Positions 43,912 to 50,922 of a stretch of 54,411 bases of DNA are shown here, piece after piece (within the stretch, counting starts at the first letter, position 1; each line of letters begins with the position of its first letter). The DNA comes from Rhodohalobacter sulfatireducens (GTDB lineage: Bacteria > Bacteroidota > Rhodothermia > Balneolales > Balneolaceae). A model generated the notes under the pieces. It did not search any database and was not told the origin of the DNA. It worked only from the letters and a program-made list of their open reading frames with translations. The position numbers were made by a program, and so were the translations under genes. The stretch is from NCBI RefSeq assembly GCF_022012475.1, contig NZ_JAKLWS010000030.1, positions 1 to 54,411 of the forward strand. Reading direction: 5' to 3'.

Positions 43912-44358
43912 ATGAGTACCCACACGCAGATTATGTATCATATAGTTTTTGGAACTAAACTCAGGACACCATCCTTAGTCAAGAAAAACAGAACAGTTTT
44001 ATTCAAATATTTCTGGGGAGTTTTGAAGAATAAAAAATGTCATCTGTACCGAATCAATGGAGTGGAAGACCATGTGCATATTCTTACTCATATCCACCCT
44101 TCAGTTGCGCTATCCGATCTGATTAAGGATTTAAAGCTGGCAAGTAGCGCCTTTATCAAAGAAAAAAAGTTATTTCCTGCATTTAGAGGTTGGCAAAAAG
44201 GCTACGCTGCGTTTTCCCATCATTACAATGATAAAGATCGGTTGGTTAACTATATCAAGGATCAGGAAAATCATCATAAATATGTAACTTGGTCTGAAGA
44301 ATTGGAAGCTCTTTTAAAGGAGCATAAAATTGAATTTGATGAGAGGTATTTGCTCTGA
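43912..44358 (+). CDS. REP-associated (RAYT-like) Y1 transposase, IS200/IS605 superfamily
   Basis: A 148-residue single-strand HUH transposase. The metal-binding HxH motif is H54-V-H56 in EDHVHILTH, and the probable nucleophile is Tyr114 in LVNYIKDQENHHK; a central helix (LSDLIKDLKLASSAFIKEKK) and GWQKGYAAFSHHYND are typical. Flanking double-hairpin repeats on both sides plus one inverted copy upstream suggest a REP-associated tyrosine transposase that recognises those hairpins. Length is normal, and the reading frame is intact, so it may be active. The start at 43912 follows a purine-rich stretch. Confidence 0.9.
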   Translation: MSTHTQIMYHIVFGTKLRTPSLVKKNRTVLFKYFWGVLKNKKCHLYRINGVEDHVHILTHIHPSVALSDLIKDLKLASSAFIKEKKLFPAFRGWQKGYAAFSHHYNDKDRLVNYIKDQENHHKYVTWSEELEALLKEHKIEFDERYLL

Positions 44359-44453: not shown

Positions 44454-44592
44454 ATATAGAATAAGCCATAGATGTGAATTGTATTTGATAATGGACTGCC
44501 TCGGAATTCATATAAATTTGCACGAATAAAACGTATATTTGAGCCAGAAAAAGTCTGAAAAGGAATGTCAGCACATCTTAAAGAATTTTTAC

Positions 44593-45489
44593 ATGAGTAG
44601 AGTTTATACATCTGTTGATCAAATTGATTTTAATATTTCCGACTTACCAACCATGCCGGTTCCTTCAAAAGTTCTGATGGTCAAACCGACCTATTTTGAT
44701 GTTGAATATGTCATCAACCCGCATATGAAGGGGCAGATTGGGGATGTGGATAAAATGCAGGCTCAAAATGAGTGGAATCACCTGGCCGAAGGATTTAAAG
44801 AGCTCGGCCTGAACGTTGAAATACTGGAAGGAAAAGAGGGACTGCCCGACATGGTGTTTTGTGCAAATCAAAGTCTGCCGTTTATAGGCCGGGAGGGCAC
44901 TAAAAAAGCAGTGATGGGAATTATGAAAACGACCCAGAGGAAACCTGAGGTTGAAGCTATTGAGAATTGGTTTCGAACTCAGGGTTATGAAATCCTGCAC
45001 CTGGATGAGAATAAAATACAAACGTTTGAAGGGATGGGGGATGCCATCTGGCACTTTAAACGTCAACTGTTATGGGGTGGGCATGGTTTTCGTTCATCTC
45101 TGAATGCATACGAACAAATCTCCGATAAGCTTGAAGTTCCTGTCATTGCACTCCCGCTTACGGATGAAACCTTTTACCACCTGGATACATGTATGTGTAT
45201 ACTGAATGAATCTTCCGCGTTGATCTACCCGTCGGCTTTTTCGGATGAAGGACTTGAAATGATCCGGGCAATGTTTGAAAATGTAATAACCGCTACAAAA
45301 TACGAGGCAGAGAAATTACTGGCAGTCAATGCAGTTTGTCCGGATGGAAAAAATGTATTCATTCAGCAGGGTTCTACCGATGTTAACAAGAAACTTAGAG
45401 ATGCCGGTTTTTCCGTTCATGAATTCAGTACGTATGAATTTTTAAAGAGCGGTGGCAGCGTATTTTGTATGAAATTGCTTTACTGGTAA
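44593..45489 (+). CDS. amidinotransferase/DDAH-like hydrolase
   Basis: A 298-residue protein of the arginine-modifying pentein superfamily. The catalytic set is present: PDMVFCANQSLPF with Asp86, FEGMGDAIW with Glu146 and Asp150, YHLDTCMCIL with His196 and the nucleophile Cys292 in GGSVFCMKLLYW. This matches dimethylarginine dimethylaminohydrolase-like or arginine deiminase-related enzymes that act on guanidino groups; peptidyl substrates are not indicated. I start at ATG 44593 (MSRVYTSVDQ); an in-frame TTG at 44539 would add 18 residues. It is flanked upstream by the repeat-transposase region. Which guanidino compound is the substrate cannot be told from the sequence. Confidence 0.87.
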   Translation: MSRVYTSVDQIDFNISDLPTMPVPSKVLMVKPTYFDVEYVINPHMKGQIGDVDKMQAQNEWNHLAEGFKELGLNVEILEGKEGLPDMVFCANQSLPFIGREGTKKAVMGIMKTTQRKPEVEAIENWFRTQGYEILHLDENKIQTFEGMGDAIWHFKRQLLWGGHGFRSSLNAYEQISDKLEVPVIALPLTDETFYHLDTCMCILNESSALIYPSAFSDEGLEMIRAMFENVITATKYEAEKLLAVNAVCPDGKNVFIQQGSTDVNKKLRDAGFSVHEFSTYEFLKSGGSVFCMKLLYW

Positions 45490-45526: not shown

Positions 45527-46300
45527 ATGAGTTTTTTTAAATCTTTTGCGGGAACTGTTTTTGCTGCATCCACTCTTTTTTTTGCCGATGCATCTGCTCA
45601 AATATTAAATGTTGAGAGAGTAAGGAGTGGAGCTGACTCAACAGGTTGGGGTGGAGAGATAGGGCTCGACCTTACAATCGAGAAATACGACGACCGTGTA
45701 ACAACCGCCGAAAATGAATCTGCACTGTTCTATACATCAAAAAATCACAACTATATTCTTCTTAGCAGCTTAGAGTTTGTGGATGTTGAAGGATCCTCGA
45801 TAATTAACAGCGGGTACGTTCATGCCCGCTCCACATTCCGGAGTAAGAAAAAGTTTTCACCGGAGCTGTTTTTGCAGTACCAATACAACAATAATCTTAG
45901 ATTGGCTAAGCGCCAACTTGTCGGTACAGGAATACGGTACCGGTTTTTATCAAAAGGCCGTCTTTCAGGGACCTTTTCAACCGGTTTTATGGCAGAAAAT
46001 GAGGAGTGGAACCCAAAAGAAGGAACAAATATAGAAAATACGTTTATTAAATCGACAAGTAATGTTGCTCTTCGCGGATCCATCAACGAAGCCACCTCTC
46101 TTTTGCTGATTGGTTACTACCAGGCTCGACCGGATCTCTTTTTTGAGCCTCGTTCTACACTTGAAAGCCAGCTCGGAGTAAAGCTGAGCAGACATATAAC
46201 CCTGGCGATCAGTTTCGTTATGACGAATGATGCCAGACCGATTATCGATATTCCAAAAGTAACATATGAACTGGAAAACAGCCTCATTTTTACATTTTAG
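45527..46300 (+). CDS. DUF481 outer-membrane-like protein
   Basis: A 257-residue secreted protein with a signal peptide (AGTVFAASTLFFADASAQ) and a beta-rich mature part that matches DUF481: GGEIGLDLTIEKYDDRV, HNYILLSSLEFVDVEG, ELFLQYQYNNNLRLAKRQ, LVGTGIRYRF, LLIGYYQARPDLFFEPRS and the C-terminal strand ELENSLIFTF ending in Phe, a common outer-membrane barrel signature. The protein is probably an outer-membrane beta barrel of unknown role. It lies 37 bases behind the DDAH-like gene. Confidence 0.82.
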   Translation: MSFFKSFAGTVFAASTLFFADASAQILNVERVRSGADSTGWGGEIGLDLTIEKYDDRVTTAENESALFYTSKNHNYILLSSLEFVDVEGSSIINSGYVHARSTFRSKKKFSPELFLQYQYNNNLRLAKRQLVGTGIRYRFLSKGRLSGTFSTGFMAENEEWNPKEGTNIENTFIKSTSNVALRGSINEATSLLLIGYYQARPDLFFEPRSTLESQLGVKLSRHITLAISFVMTNDARPIIDIPKVTYELENSLIFTF

Positions 46301-46380: not shown

Positions 46381-48804
46381 ATGACTCGTAAAGTACAACT
46401 ACTGATTGCAGTCCTGTTTCTGGGAGCAGTCATCTATGTTTACTCTATTCCGCTTGGATCTCTCCCGCCGGTCGGCAACTTCTTTCACCCTATTAAAGGC
46501 TTCTGGGGAAATGCAGAAACCCGGGAGCTCAACGGATCTATTACACTGAATTTGGATGGTTTACAGGAACCTGTTGAAATCTATTTCGATGAGCGAAGGG
46601 TCCCGCACATTTTCGCAAAAAATGATCATGACCTCTACTTTGCACAAGGCTACATTGTTGCGAGAGACCGCCTGTTTCAAATGGAGTTGCAGGCATATGA
46701 TGCGGGTGGACGTTTAGCCGAGATCATTGGCCCTGCTATGCTAAATAGAGATCGCAATACCCGGCGATGGGGAATGCCCTATGGAGCTGAGAAAGCCATT
46801 GAAGTGATCAAAAAAGATGAACAGATGTGGGCAACGTTGAATGCGTATTCTGATGGTGTAAACGCCTATATCGAAGGACTCAGTCCGGCAAAATATCCTT
46901 TGGAATATAAAATTCTGAACCTTGCCCCGGAGGAGTGGAAGCCCCTGAAAACAGCTCTCTTGCTCAAAAATATGACTCGCACGCTGGCAGCCGGAAACAG
47001 CGATAATCAAACCAGCAATACGCAAAAATATTTTGGCAAACAGTTCATAGATAAATGGTTTACAACCAAACCTGAACTGAATGATCCGATCATTCCGCCA
47101 ACCAGGGAGTGGAATTTCCAGGCAGACATCCCGCTCGCACCCGACTCACTTTTTGTGCCGACCCTTGCAAATGCTTTGTCTCCGTTTGAACAAGCCGAAG
47201 GTGTTGGAAGCAACAATTGGGCGGTAAGTGGCGAGAAAACACAATCCGGGAATCCTATTCTTGCAAATGACCCGCACCTTGAGTTAACTCTGCCCTCCAT
47301 CTGGTATGAGGTTCAACTTCATGCTCCAGGTATAAATACTTATGGAGCTACCCTCCAGGGAGCACCGGGAGTAATTATAGGATTCAATGAAAATGTGGCA
47401 TGGGGAGTGACGAATGTAAGTGCAGATGTAATGGATTGGTACGAAATTCAGTTTAGAGATGAATCAAAACAGGAATACCGGCATGATGGCCGGTGGAAAG
47501 AAACCAACTTCAGGATTGAAGAGATAAAAGTTCGGGGCCGGGAAACCGTCATTGATACCGTTGTTTATACACATCACGGCCCGGTAACAGAAGTCAGGTC
47601 CTCTTTTACGGAAGGCAGCGAGCCTGTATATCACGCCCAGCGCTGGATTGCACACGACGGTTCTAACGACTTGAAAGCATTTTACGGGTTGAACAGGGCG
47701 GAAAATTACGATGATTATGTAGAAGCTTTAAAACATTTTGACGCCCCGGCACAAAATTTTGTGTTCGCAAGCAATGAAGGAGACATAGCTCTTTGGGTGA
47801 ATGGAAAATTTCCTAAAAAGTGGGAGTTCCAGGGACGTACAGTGAGCGACGGTACCGATCCCGATTACGACTGGCAGGGCTGGATTCCAAGAGATCATGT
47901 GCCCCATATTAAAAATCCGGAGCGCGGTTTTGTGAGTTCAGCCAATCAAGAGTCTGCTGCGCCCGATTACCCATATTATCTTGATGATGATTTTGCTCCA
48001 TTCGAAAGGGGGCGCCGAATCAATGATTTGCTGGACCGGATGGAGAATATTACCGTGGAAGATATACAGCAGATGCAATTAGACACCTACAGCTACTACG
48101 GTGAAGTATTGCTTCCTTCACTCCTGGAATGGGTTGAGACTGACAGTCTAAACAGCCGGGAGATGGAGATCTACAACCTGTTGACAGAATGGAATTATCA
48201 TATGGATGCCGAAATGATCGCTCCATCGGTGTTTAGAAGTTGGAGAGGTCAATTCTATCAATCCATTTTTTTGGATGAATATGAATCTACACCTGCAACT
48301 CTCCGGTATCCGGCTCGAGATCGTTTTGCAGAGGTCATAAAAAATGAACCGGACTGGCCGTTTATTGATGATGTGGAAACTGATATGGTAGAAACCCGGT
48401 CGTACCAGGCTACAAATTCATTCAAAACAGCAATTTCTGAACTTACGGATGAGTATGGAGATTTCGGTGATAACTGGAAATGGGGTTTTGTGATTGATAA
48501 CGACATTAATCATATGGCGTTTATTCCCGGGATGGGTGAGCAGGATCTTTTCAGCAGCGGTTCGTCGGAAGCGATTAATGCTACGCGCGGTACACACGGT
48601 CCGTCATGGAGAATGGTTGTTGAGGTAGGACCGGAAGTTCGCGGGTATGGAGTTTATCCCGGCGGACAATCAGGAAATCCCGGTTCAGCGTCTTATACGG
48701 ATTTTCTTGAACCCTGGAGGACCGGTGAATTGTTTGAACTGCAGTTTTTGAGTGAAAAACCACAACTCTCAGACAAATTCCCCTTGAAGGTCACCCTGGA
48801 ATAG
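46381..48804 (+). CDS. penicillin acylase family N-terminal nucleophile hydrolase
   Basis: An 807-residue Ntn hydrolase with an N-terminal membrane anchor or signal (VQLLIAVLFLGAVIYVYSI), so it acts in the periplasm. The enzyme is expected to be processed into alpha and beta chains, with the beta chain starting at Ser277 in GVGSNNWAVSGEKT. Other marks are VPHIFAKNDHDLYFAQGYI, ARDRLFQMELQAYDAGGRLA, NDPHLELTLPSIWYEVQLHA, PGVIIGFNENVAWGVTN and GVYPGGQSGNPGSASY. Family members cleave amides such as acyl-homoserine lactones, beta-lactams or acylated peptides. It is followed by an amidoligase/C26 pair, which may be more than chance. An out-of-frame ATG lies at 46374; I use 46381. Confidence 0.93.
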   Translation: MTRKVQLLIAVLFLGAVIYVYSIPLGSLPPVGNFFHPIKGFWGNAETRELNGSITLNLDGLQEPVEIYFDERRVPHIFAKNDHDLYFAQGYIVARDRLFQMELQAYDAGGRLAEIIGPAMLNRDRNTRRWGMPYGAEKAIEVIKKDEQMWATLNAYSDGVNAYIEGLSPAKYPLEYKILNLAPEEWKPLKTALLLKNMTRTLAAGNSDNQTSNTQKYFGKQFIDKWFTTKPELNDPIIPPTREWNFQADIPLAPDSLFVPTLANALSPFEQAEGVGSNNWAVSGEKTQSGNPILANDPHLELTLPSIWYEVQLHAPGINTYGATLQGAPGVIIGFNENVAWGVTNVSADVMDWYEIQFRDESKQEYRHDGRWKETNFRIEEIKVRGRETVIDTVVYTHHGPVTEVRSSFTEGSEPVYHAQRWIAHDGSNDLKAFYGLNRAENYDDYVEALKHFDAPAQNFVFASNEGDIALWVNGKFPKKWEFQGRTVSDGTDPDYDWQGWIPRDHVPHIKNPERGFVSSANQESAAPDYPYYLDDDFAPFERGRRINDLLDRMENITVEDIQQMQLDTYSYYGEVLLPSLLEWVETDSLNSREMEIYNLLTEWNYHMDAEMIAPSVFRSWRGQFYQSIFLDEYESTPATLRYPARDRFAEVIKNEPDWPFIDDVETDMVETRSYQATNSFKTAISELTDEYGDFGDNWKWGFVIDNDINHMAFIPGMGEQDLFSSGSSEAINATRGTHGPSWRMVVEVGPEVRGYGVYPGGQSGNPGSASYTDFLEPWRTGELFELQFLSEKPQLSDKFPLKVTLE

Positions 48805-48850: not shown

Positions 48851-49852
48851 ATGAATCAAGAGTTTTTAAAGCCCCAGCGAGCAACCAATGAATCTGGAGA
48901 GGAACGAAGAGTAGGGGTTGAATTTGAGTTTACCGGGGTTGAGATGGAGGATATAGCTTCCTTGCTGTCTATGCTCTATGGAGGTAAAATTGAGCAGCTC
49001 TCCACATTTGAGTTCAAAATAGTGAAAACAAGGTTCGGAGATTTCGGGTTGGAACTGGATGCCCAGCTGATTCGTGATAAGAAGTATGAGAAATTCCTGA
49101 GGAGTATTGGTATTGATCTCTCCGAGTATGAGGGACAGTATGTTGTAGAAGATTCTCTCAAAGACCTGGCTTCCTCCGTTGTTCCTTACGAGATTATCAC
49201 ACCGCCAATTCCTCTGTCGAAAATGGGTGAGCTCACATCGCTGGTTGACGGGTTGAGAACGTTGAAAGCAAAGGGTACGGGGAGTTCTTTTGTCTATGCG
49301 TTTGGCCTCCACCTGAACCCTGAGATACCCGACGAATCTACAGCAACATTGCTGAACTATTTGCGGGCGTATGTACTGCTGGATCCCTGGATCCGAAAGG
49401 ATATTAGTGTAGATGTGAGCCGGCGCTTAACACCATTCATAAACCGGTTTGAAGACGATTACATGGAGCATATACTGAATCCGGATTACCAGCCGAATCA
49501 AACCGAATTTATTAAAGACTATTTTGAGTTTGGAAATTCAAGAAATCGCCCGTTGGATATGCAGCCGTTGTTTATGTATTTGAATGAGGAGTTAACCTCA
49601 AAGCTGGTGGAGGATACATTGACTTCGAGCCGACCTGCATTTCACTACCGGTTGCCAAATTGTTCTCTCGAGGATGAAGCCTGGACGCTTGCGGGGGAGT
49701 GGAACCGGTGGGTGTTGGTGGAAACCTTGGCTGAGGATGATGAATCGCTCTTGCAATATTGCAATGCCTATTTAAAAATGCGGAGGGAGACGGTAATTCG
49801 ATTCGAGGCCAAATGGATTGAATTGATGGATAGATGGGTGAAAAATGTTTGA
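48851..49852 (+). CDS. amidoligase family protein (Amidoligase_2)
   Basis: A 333-residue member of the amidoligase family, a glutamine-synthetase-like carboxylate-amine ligase fold. Landmarks are RRVGVEFEFTGVE at the N-terminus (the metal-binding Glu-x-Glu motif), FGDFGLELDAQL, VPYEIITPPIPL, FVYAFGLHLNPEIP with a conserved His, and RPAFHYRLPNCS with a conserved Arg. Such proteins are predicted to form amide or peptide bonds on small molecules or proteins and often pair with a glutamine amidotransferase or peptidase. The downstream C26 gene starts inside its last codons (8-base overlap), so the two are a unit. The substrate is unknown. Confidence 0.88.
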   Translation: MNQEFLKPQRATNESGEERRVGVEFEFTGVEMEDIASLLSMLYGGKIEQLSTFEFKIVKTRFGDFGLELDAQLIRDKKYEKFLRSIGIDLSEYEGQYVVEDSLKDLASSVVPYEIITPPIPLSKMGELTSLVDGLRTLKAKGTGSSFVYAFGLHLNPEIPDESTATLLNYLRAYVLLDPWIRKDISVDVSRRLTPFINRFEDDYMEHILNPDYQPNQTEFIKDYFEFGNSRNRPLDMQPLFMYLNEELTSKLVEDTLTSSRPAFHYRLPNCSLEDEAWTLAGEWNRWVLVETLAEDDESLLQYCNAYLKMRRETVIRFEAKWIELMDRWVKNV

Positions 49853-50624
49853 TAAAAGGAAACCTGTCATAGGTGTTTGTGGCCCGGATGAGGGTGGAGG
49901 TTTCGCATGGATCTGTACGGCCGTTTCAGTTTGGCTGGCAGGAGGGAAGCCGAGACGAATTCGTCCTTCGGCACCAATTTCAGTTAACGAACTGGATGGT
50001 TTGATTCTCGGGGGCGGGGCAGATATTGAACCGAAAAAATATGGACAGGAGAGAAATGTAAAAGCATACCTTCATAAAAATAAGAGGACAATTTTTGAAT
50101 GGGTTCTGTCTATCATCTTTTTCCCGGTCTATTGGGTTTTCCGATATTTTCAACACACAAAAAAGTACCCGGTTGACCTTGAAAGGGATAAACTTGAGTT
50201 CCATCTCCTGAAAAAAGCCCTTGAACAACATAAACCTGTTTTGGGTGTGTGCAGAGGAATGCAGTTAATTAATGTACATTTTGGAGGAACTCTCCACCAG
50301 GATATCAGTGCGTTTTATGCTGAGGAGCCCCAGGTTGCAACAATTTTTCCGAAAAAGAGAATTTCCATTGAAAAAGGATCGAAGATGGAGAGTCTGCTTC
50401 AGACAGATATTTGTAATGTTAATGGGTTGCACTATCAGGCCATAGATAAGCCGGGAACCGGTATCAAAAAATCAGCCAGTGAACTCCATACAGATATTTG
50501 GCAGGCGTTAGAGCATACCGATTTTCCATTTGTGATTGGTGTTCAGTGGCACCCGGAATACCTGTTACAGATCGCCCGTCAGAGAAATATTTTCAAGGAG
50601 TTGGTGAAAGAAGCTCGCAGTTAA
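49845..50624 (+). CDS. peptidase C26/gamma-glutamyl hydrolase-like protein
   Basis: A 259-residue class I glutamine amidotransferase-like protein. Catalytic nucleophile Cys136 is in LGVCRGMQLINVHFGG, and His236/Glu238 in GVQWHPEYL complete the triad. LGGGADIEPKKYGQ is the family loop. Between residues 82 and 105 is an unusual hydrophobic stretch (TIFEWVLSIIFFPVYWVFRY) that could be membrane-associated. The family includes gamma-glutamyl-GABA hydrolase, but with an overlapping amidoligase gene upstream, a role in removing or supplying an amide group in the same pathway is more likely. Confidence 0.87.
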   Translation: MFDKRKPVIGVCGPDEGGGFAWICTAVSVWLAGGKPRRIRPSAPISVNELDGLILGGGADIEPKKYGQERNVKAYLHKNKRTIFEWVLSIIFFPVYWVFRYFQHTKKYPVDLERDKLEFHLLKKALEQHKPVLGVCRGMQLINVHFGGTLHQDISAFYAEEPQVATIFPKKRISIEKGSKMESLLQTDICNVNGLHYQAIDKPGTGIKKSASELHTDIWQALEHTDFPFVIGVQWHPEYLLQIARQRNIFKELVKEARS

Positions 50625-50626
50625 CG

Positions 50627-50922
50627 TACGCCGGACAGCTTGTCCGGCATTGAGATGATGGTGCGATTATACATAGTCAAAGATGTCATTGGCGTAGTAG
50701 ACTCACTCGTGCTCGAAGTGGGGTAGGGCACAAGCGAGGAGGCTTGCGCCATTTGAGGGTATACAAATGTACGCCGGACAGCTTGTCCGGCACCACCAAA
50801 CCGGAAATCTGCTTCTGGTTGATTGATTGAGTGTGTATTTGATGGGTGGCAGGTCACAAGCGAGGATGCTTGCGCTATATGCCAGAATTAATATCAGTTA
50901 GTAACGGGCAAGCTGCCCGTTG
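50627..50922. repeat. REP-like array of five hairpins
   Basis: The 306-base gap after the C26 gene holds no ORF of note but several palindromes: GCCGGACA-GCT-TGTCCGGC twice (50630-50648, 50773-50791); CACAAGCG...GCTTGCGC twice (50729-50750, 50855-50876); and ACGGGCA-AGC-TGCCCGT once (50904-50920). The first two types alternate, so the array is a duplicated pair. The second type recurs inverted at 11353. It looks like a bacterial interspersed mosaic element. Confidence 0.8.

Follow-up and report, generated by a model that had tools for sequence, protein, structure and literature searches.

PuuA and PuuD form the gamma-glutamyl-putrescine pathway, in which a ligase of the glutamine synthetase (GS) fold is combined with a C26 hydrolase. 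GatD-MurT joins a class-I amidotransferase to a ligase, MurT, which is a Mur ligase and not of the GS fold. Here we analyse a gene pair of the bacterium Rhodohalobacter sulfatireducens that encodes an Amidoligase_2 protein (termed AL) and a Peptidase_C26 protein (termed C26). The pair is found on contig NZ_JAKLWS010000030.1, of which positions 1 to 54,411 were analysed and are called the window. Amidoligase_2 (PF12224) is the current Pfam name of the second family of carboxylate-amine ligases that Iyer et al. 2008 distinguished. Iyer, Burroughs and Aravind described the pairing of such a ligase with a thiol peptidase in 2008 (PMC2588565); according to the parts of that paper accessible to us, the partner is a peptidase in proteobacteria and a cyclotransferase in firmicutes. 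Moreover, phage modules that consist of an amidoligase and a gamma-glutamyl cyclotransferase (GGCT) were proposed, in the accessible parts of the respective papers, to modify cell walls (PMC11253131, PMC11945000, PMC11318856) or to aid nitrogen metabolism (PMC10945688).

We propose that AL and C26 form a self-contained two-gene cycle that makes and breaks a gamma-glutamyl amide, a reading whose chances we rate as even. An initial annotation of the window had suggested an "undescribed" pathway, which is wrong for the pair in view of the 2008 report. Compared to the accessible parts of that report, however, the pair is here also found in Balneolota, Verrucomicrobiota and Thermodesulfobacteriota, both types of partner, C26 and GGCT, occur within one AL subgroup, and C26 carries a hydrophobic insert of which we found no mention there. 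Thus, the pairing is already known, whereas the insert and the exchange of partners within one bacterial ligase subgroup were not found in the literature examined, as far as it was accessible. For this conserved enzyme couple, noted in 2008, the literature search returned no reported substrate and no mention of the insert; the follow-up of Iyer et al. 2009 (10.1039/b917682a), which lay outside its reach, may already describe more of the pair. Regarding PuuA-PuuD, the solved structures closest to C26 include PuuD and P. aeruginosa SpuA, but AL has no match to PuuA or any other GS entry in a sequence search of the PDB (E up to 1). No oxidase or dehydrogenase operon was seen to recur around the pair, although its neighbours are not all annotated and such enzymes could be encoded elsewhere in the genome. 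GatD-MurT resembles the pair in that a protein of the class-I amidotransferase fold is coupled to an ATP-dependent amide-forming enzyme; it differs in that C26 has a complete Cys-His-Glu triad and a PuuD-like fold. The modules of phiEco32, LUZ24-like phages, a Terrisporobacter prophage and Phage-ZRK32 combine their amidoligase with a GGCT, as do the bacterial AL-GGCT loci. However, several of them add ATP-grasp or other ligases, none of which recurs beside the bacterial pair, and AL has neither a match in the phage collection (tblastn, E 1e-5) nor a confirmed relative on viral contigs.

The coupling of AL and C26 is far beyond chance. PF12224 is matched in 48 of the 92 genomes of the window's bacterial family, and a search with the window's C26 protein (E 1e-20) returned the same 48 genomes, the lists being compared by eye. 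In 48 of the 49 AL loci, window included, AL is directly followed by C26 in the same orientation; in the exception (L077) the contig end falls inside AL. C26 overlaps AL in 47 of 48 family loci, the remaining one (L034) showing a 21-base gap, although these calls take the longest reading frame and may overstate overlap. The translational coupling of ligase and hydrolase that the initial annotation had claimed is borne out by the 8-bp overlap in the window and by the conservation of the two-gene unit. Since the surroundings of the pair vary between genera, it appears to move as such a unit. AL is the sole PF12224 match in the source genome, and C26 has no close second copy there, other PF07722 matches being weak (best E 6.4e-9). 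Across a sample of the phylum PF12224 is present in 28 of 296 genomes, 22 of which belong to the window's family.

A scan of the genome_contigs collection recovered at least 577 AL relatives, the best 80 of which were used for neighbourhood counts. Their hosts include Balneolota, Verrucomicrobiota, Pseudomonadota, Thermodesulfobacteriota and others. Our greedy open reading frame (ORF) caller drops genes in G+C-rich loci and gave no AL ORF in 12 of these 80; C26 was therefore counted by tblastn, and 71 of the 80 have it on the same strand, no more than 3 kb downstream of AL. Both samples thus show the ligase-peptidase neighbourhood of Iyer et al. 2008. Among 130 loci with both genes (119 distinct), C26 starts at most 10 nt from the AL stop or overlaps AL in 120, the overlap being outright in 108.

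Nine of the 80 loci lack C26 (L119, L122, L139, L145, L155, L161, L166, L171, L174). In three of them (L119, L122, L145) a GGACT-type GGCT overlaps the end of AL, and in L139 a GGCT lies directly upstream of AL. PF06094 was confirmed for the GGCTs of L119, L139 and L145, and that of L122 was assigned by clustering with these. Both partners are found in L142 and L151, with GGCT upstream and C26 downstream, and in L158, where GGCT is on the opposite strand. In place of the insert, the GGCTs next to AL carry a hydrophobic segment at the N-terminus, by our own reading of their sequences. The folds of C26 and GGCT are unrelated, and enzymes of both folds are known to cut gamma-glutamyl amides. Since two such unrelated folds are found in the same place, a gamma-glutamyl amide is the likeliest product of AL, and the exchange favours the proposed cycle. 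Moreover, in the genomes of L122, L139, L166 and L174 the C26 model finds no more than weak matches (E 2.5e-8 at best), which indicates that AL can exist without this C26, some of the C26-less genomes being drafts or metagenome-assembled genomes (MAGs). A separate observation concerns L186, a 3.8-kb stretch with a long C26 (1501-2262, - strand) and no AL, which comes from the same genome as the C26-less AL of L161; a separated pair or a binning mix are both possible.

AL matches Amidoligase_2 with 202.2 bits (cut-off 22) and covers profile positions 1-244 of 245. Residues G22, E24 and E26, invariant in 40 sequences, correspond to the GhExE signature in the first core strand of the GS/GCS2 superfamily, a signature that is described in PMC2588565. 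The structure model of AL has a predicted local distance difference test score (pLDDT) of 90.2. Foldseek gave weak results (best E 4.6e-3), and the GS fold came from a second look with VIA, where glutamine synthetase 5dm3 is the best match (Z 12.7, 211 residues, root-mean-square deviation 3.5) and plant glutamate cysteine ligase 2gwc (Z 10.8) and YbdK 1r8g (Z 9.6) are matched as well. A sequence search of AL against solved structures returned nothing useful (best E 0.016). Profile and model together predict that AL is a carboxylate-amine ligase of the GS/GCS2 superfamily with ATP-dependent activity. C26, whose model has a pLDDT of 87.5, finds its best fold matches in Lin1909, E. coli PuuD and P. 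aeruginosa SpuA, and the same three proteins are its nearest solved relatives in a sequence profile search. The Cys-His-Glu hydrolase of the initial annotation is confirmed in that an alignment of 44 C26 sequences shows no variation at C136, H236 and E238, and C26 is predicted to be a gamma-glutamyl-amide hydrolase. The coordinates of the pair and its features are given in Table 1.

Table 1. Features of the AL-C26 locus in window coordinates
Feature	Position	Strand	Details
AL, Amidoligase_2 protein, 333 aa	48851..49852	+	PF12224 E 1.6e-59; predicted ATP-dependent carboxylate-amine ligase, GS/GCS2 fold
GhExE signature of AL, residues 22-26 (G-V-E-F-E)	48914..48928	+	predicted Mg/ATP site
AL/C26 overlap, 8 bp	49845..49852	+	C26 start codon inside the AL end; AL stop TGA 49850-49852
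C26, Peptidase_C26 protein, 259 aa	49845..50624	+	PF07722 E 3e-43; predicted gamma-glutamyl-amide hydrolase
Hydrophobic helix of C26 (predicted), residues 83-103	50091..50153	+	in insert of ~36 residues, between GGGAD and CRG motifs
Cys136 codon of C26 (GVCRG motif)	50250..50252	+	catalytic; invariant in 44 sequences
Codons 236-238 of C26 (His-Pro-Glu)	50550..50558	+	catalytic His236 and Glu238; invariant in 44 sequences
PA, penicillin acylase	46381-48804		upstream of AL; PF01804 E 7.2e-207; gap to AL 46 bases

In the proposed cycle AL would link an amine to a carboxylate at the expense of ATP, the likeliest carboxylate being the gamma-carboxylate of glutamate. C26 would hydrolyse the resulting gamma-glutamyl amide by its Cys-His-Glu triad, presumably through a glutamyl-thioester as in enzymes of the SpuA/PuuD type, as its fold and residues suggest. 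The overlap of the genes, which is conserved, would keep both enzymes together. In the long form of C26 (see below) the helix would attach the enzyme to the cytosolic side of the membrane. The conjugate would thus form in the cytosol, whereas its cleavage would take place at the membrane. Such a cycle might serve to carry, protect or regulate a membrane-associated or exported amine. The AL-only, AL-C26 and AL-GGCT loci and the forms with and without insert offer natural controls, and cultured hosts, including Salinivibrio, Marinobacter and Ectothiorhodospira species, make deletion combined with metabolomics feasible.

Several observations weigh against the proposed cycle. A writer and an eraser encoded by the same operon would undo each other's work unless they were separated in space or time, and such a separation is part of our inference. 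No substrate or activity of any close member is known to us. No third gene recurs at the 80 loci, since clusters of neighbours beyond AL and C26 reach at most seven of them, a provisional figure given the genes dropped by the ORF caller. Five of the nine C26-less loci are also without GGCT: L161, L166, L171 and L174 have neither gene in the fetched stretch, and L155, from Marinobacter halophilus, is a copy of AL whose matched stretch contains stops, the AL-C26 pair L190 being present in the same genome. The genomes of L119, L145, L155, L161 and L171 hold another C26-type gene elsewhere; because two of the GGCT loci, L119 and L145, are among them, a clean exchange is seen for L122 and L139 only. 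Finally, the four labelled GGCT rows of the AL tree need just one change.

An alternative is that the pair carries out glutamine-dependent amidation, in which C26 would be a glutaminase subunit that passes ammonia to AL, the acceptor being a carboxylate, perhaps on a lipid-linked precursor. We consider this unlikely, albeit the best placed of the alternatives. GatD-MurT would be a comparable enzyme, C26 belongs to the class-I amidotransferase superfamily (GATase, PF00117, 58 bits), the tight overlap of the genes suits a two-subunit enzyme and a membrane helix would suit a lipid-linked substrate. However, C26 scores far higher with Peptidase_C26 (PF07722, 148.6 bits, cut-off 20.5) than with GATase, and two of the named folds closest to it, PuuD and SpuA, belong to hydrolases of gamma-glutamyl amides. 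Moreover, AL occurs without C26, as the weak matches to the C26 model in the genomes of L122, L139, L166 and L174 indicate, and a cyclotransferase at the position of C26 would be an unusual source of ammonia.

Somewhat less probable still is a catabolic pathway resembling PuuA-PuuD, in which AL would tag an amine with glutamate, dehydrogenases would oxidise it and C26 would release the product. It agrees with a C26 of the PuuD/SpuA type and with aldehyde dehydrogenase genes near AL in L082 and L090. These two proteins look unalike in our own reading, however, and the aldehyde dehydrogenase was dropped as a shared neighbour. In addition, no oxidase or dehydrogenase was seen to recur among the neighbour clusters of the 80 loci, and the movement of the pair as a two-gene unit through varied surroundings argues against such a pathway.

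The hydrophobic insertion noted in the initial annotation was recovered as well, the most hydrophobic 18-mer of C26 (residues 82-99) lying inside or beside the predicted helix. Two kinds of C26 can be distinguished: a long one with about 36 extra residues between GGGAD and CRG, which usually include a hydrophobic stretch, and a short one without insert. Of the 130 loci a script classed 92 as long and 30 as short; the eight left over were sorted by eye into long (L073, L086), short (L128, L132, L157, L163) and two truncated ones. After removal of duplicates there are 84 long and 33 short among 117 distinct classifiable loci. All 48 C26 of the window's family are long, compared to 36 of 69 outside it. 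Across phyla the insert goes with one subgroup of AL: in the AL tree a single group of 54 rows contains all 52 that were labelled long, and the insert thus follows the ligase type. The tree labels stem from a first version of the script, which missed a motif variant and left 31 rows unlabelled. These rows (29 short, two truncated) are found in the other large AL group together with four GGCT rows, and three Rhodobacterales rows with short C26 lie outside both groups. Ectothiorhodospira magna strain B7-7 has two AL loci (L138, L170), one in each main AL group.

We suggest that the insert may be a membrane anchor; a helix at the membrane surface, a buried interface or a docking helix are possible as well. 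The window's insert is strongly hydrophobic (18-mer mean 0.79) and not clearly amphipathic (moment 0.24, compared to a mean of 0.29 for the 92 long sequences). The following points weigh against this part of the proposed cycle. The helix moment is low on average, as that mean indicates, and the confidence of the helix model is moderate (block means 75, 73 and 59). The best 18-mer averages less than 0.4 in six of 94 long loci, in one case -0.02, and the insert of L164 is not hydrophobic though its C26 is classed as long. Short C26 and the alphaproteobacterial pairs do not have the insert helix, which could dock onto AL rather than onto the membrane. Support for the 54-row group (92/92) is below the tool's mark of 95, and its two remaining rows are L150, which has a short C26, and L088, in which AL is without C26. 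L088 belongs to the same phylum as the window, and a C26-type gene is present at another site of its genome.

Should the helix indeed anchor C26 in the membrane, the candidates for the amine could be limited to molecules of the membrane or envelope. In an extended form of the proposed cycle AL would add glutamate, by its gamma-carboxylate, to a membrane or envelope amine, and membrane-docked C26 would remove it again. That this constitutes a widespread reversible cycle we regard as doubtful, more so than either alternative above. Candidate amines would be the head group of a phospholipid or of a cell-wall precursor, and the cycle, if true, would represent a reversible switch of membrane charge or export that has spread laterally among several phyla. 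We know of no such glutamylation system for lipids or the envelope.

Some further observations concern loci of the two kinds of C26. Among L098-L177, many hosts of long C26 bear names that refer to saline or alkaline habitats (Ectothiorhodospira haloalkaliphila, Thioalkalivibrio, Desulfobulbus alkaliphilus), an uncontrolled observation on loci for which the query was a Balneolales MAG. The contig of L164, which carries AL and its C26, is binned as Euryarchaeota; transfer or a binning error are possible. A bPH_2 (bacterial PH-domain) protein overlaps the end of long C26 in L134 (profile match) and L136 (by look). A small membrane protein directly follows short C26 in L144, L146, L157 and L163; the one of L157 is a VTT-domain (DedA-like) protein and the other three look alike.

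Very improbable is a Pup-like conjugation, in which AL would ligate a peptide or protein tag and C26 would remove it. According to the accessible parts of Iyer et al. 2008 (PMC2588565), PafA is likewise of the GS fold and has the GhExE signature, but no Pup-like small ORF is found near this ligase family. C26-type enzymes of known structure, moreover, cut small gamma-glutamyl amides.

In the window PA, AL and C26 are collinear, and the initial annotation had joined them into a three-gene pathway that begins with an amidase 47 bases upstream of AL. The amidase is indeed a penicillin acylase, but the spacing is one base shorter than stated. This three-gene pathway fails, since PA adjoins the pair in the window's genus and one other only. 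Where the contig has an upstream gene, PA directly precedes AL in 12 of 16 loci from the window's genus, one of three from genus g17 and 0 of 24 from the other genera of the family. PA was therefore ruled out as a third member by these neighbourhood counts, and the three-gene pathway, the least credible reading of all, is further disfavoured by the three PA paralogues of the source genome, by a PA that is probably exported, unlike AL, as its N-terminal hydrophobic segment suggests by eye, and by the ORFs called at the 80 genome_contigs loci, among which a PA relative appears in L156 only, itself the copy of a locus from the family, the caller missing genes in G+C-rich loci. PA is part of a genus-level block upstream of the pair, which also contains a dimethylargininase/arginine-dihydrolase-like protein that scores below the NCBI cut-offs (44539-45489) and, before PA, a DUF481-like protein (45527-46300).

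A phage or defence origin was rejected, since the phage collection contains no record that matches AL, 24 stretches of viral contigs yielded no confirmed AL relative, PADLOC has no match for AL, C26 or PA, and PHROG has none for AL. C26 matches the phage glutamine-amidotransferase family phrog_7218 (E 4e-19). Relatives of AL on plasmids were found at the protein level in 11 records, all from Alphaproteobacteria, and no plasmid matched at the DNA level. In eight plasmid regions viewed, the pair is present in three, all from Rhodobacterales; four have AL without an annotated adjacent C26 and the eighth is unannotated, and tblastn finds no C26 in these five. On an Azospirillum plasmid (L096) a solo AL precedes the genes of a response regulator and a sensor kinase.

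Directly 3' of C26, a perfect 19-bp palindrome resembling repetitive extragenic palindromic (REP) sequences occurs twice (50630-50648 and 50773-50791). It has 14 perfect matches across the genome, compared to 0 for a reversed control. A Y1_Tnp (IS200-like) transposase is encoded at 43912-44358 and, together with the palindromes, makes an element of the REP/RAYT (REP-associated tyrosine transposase) type possible.
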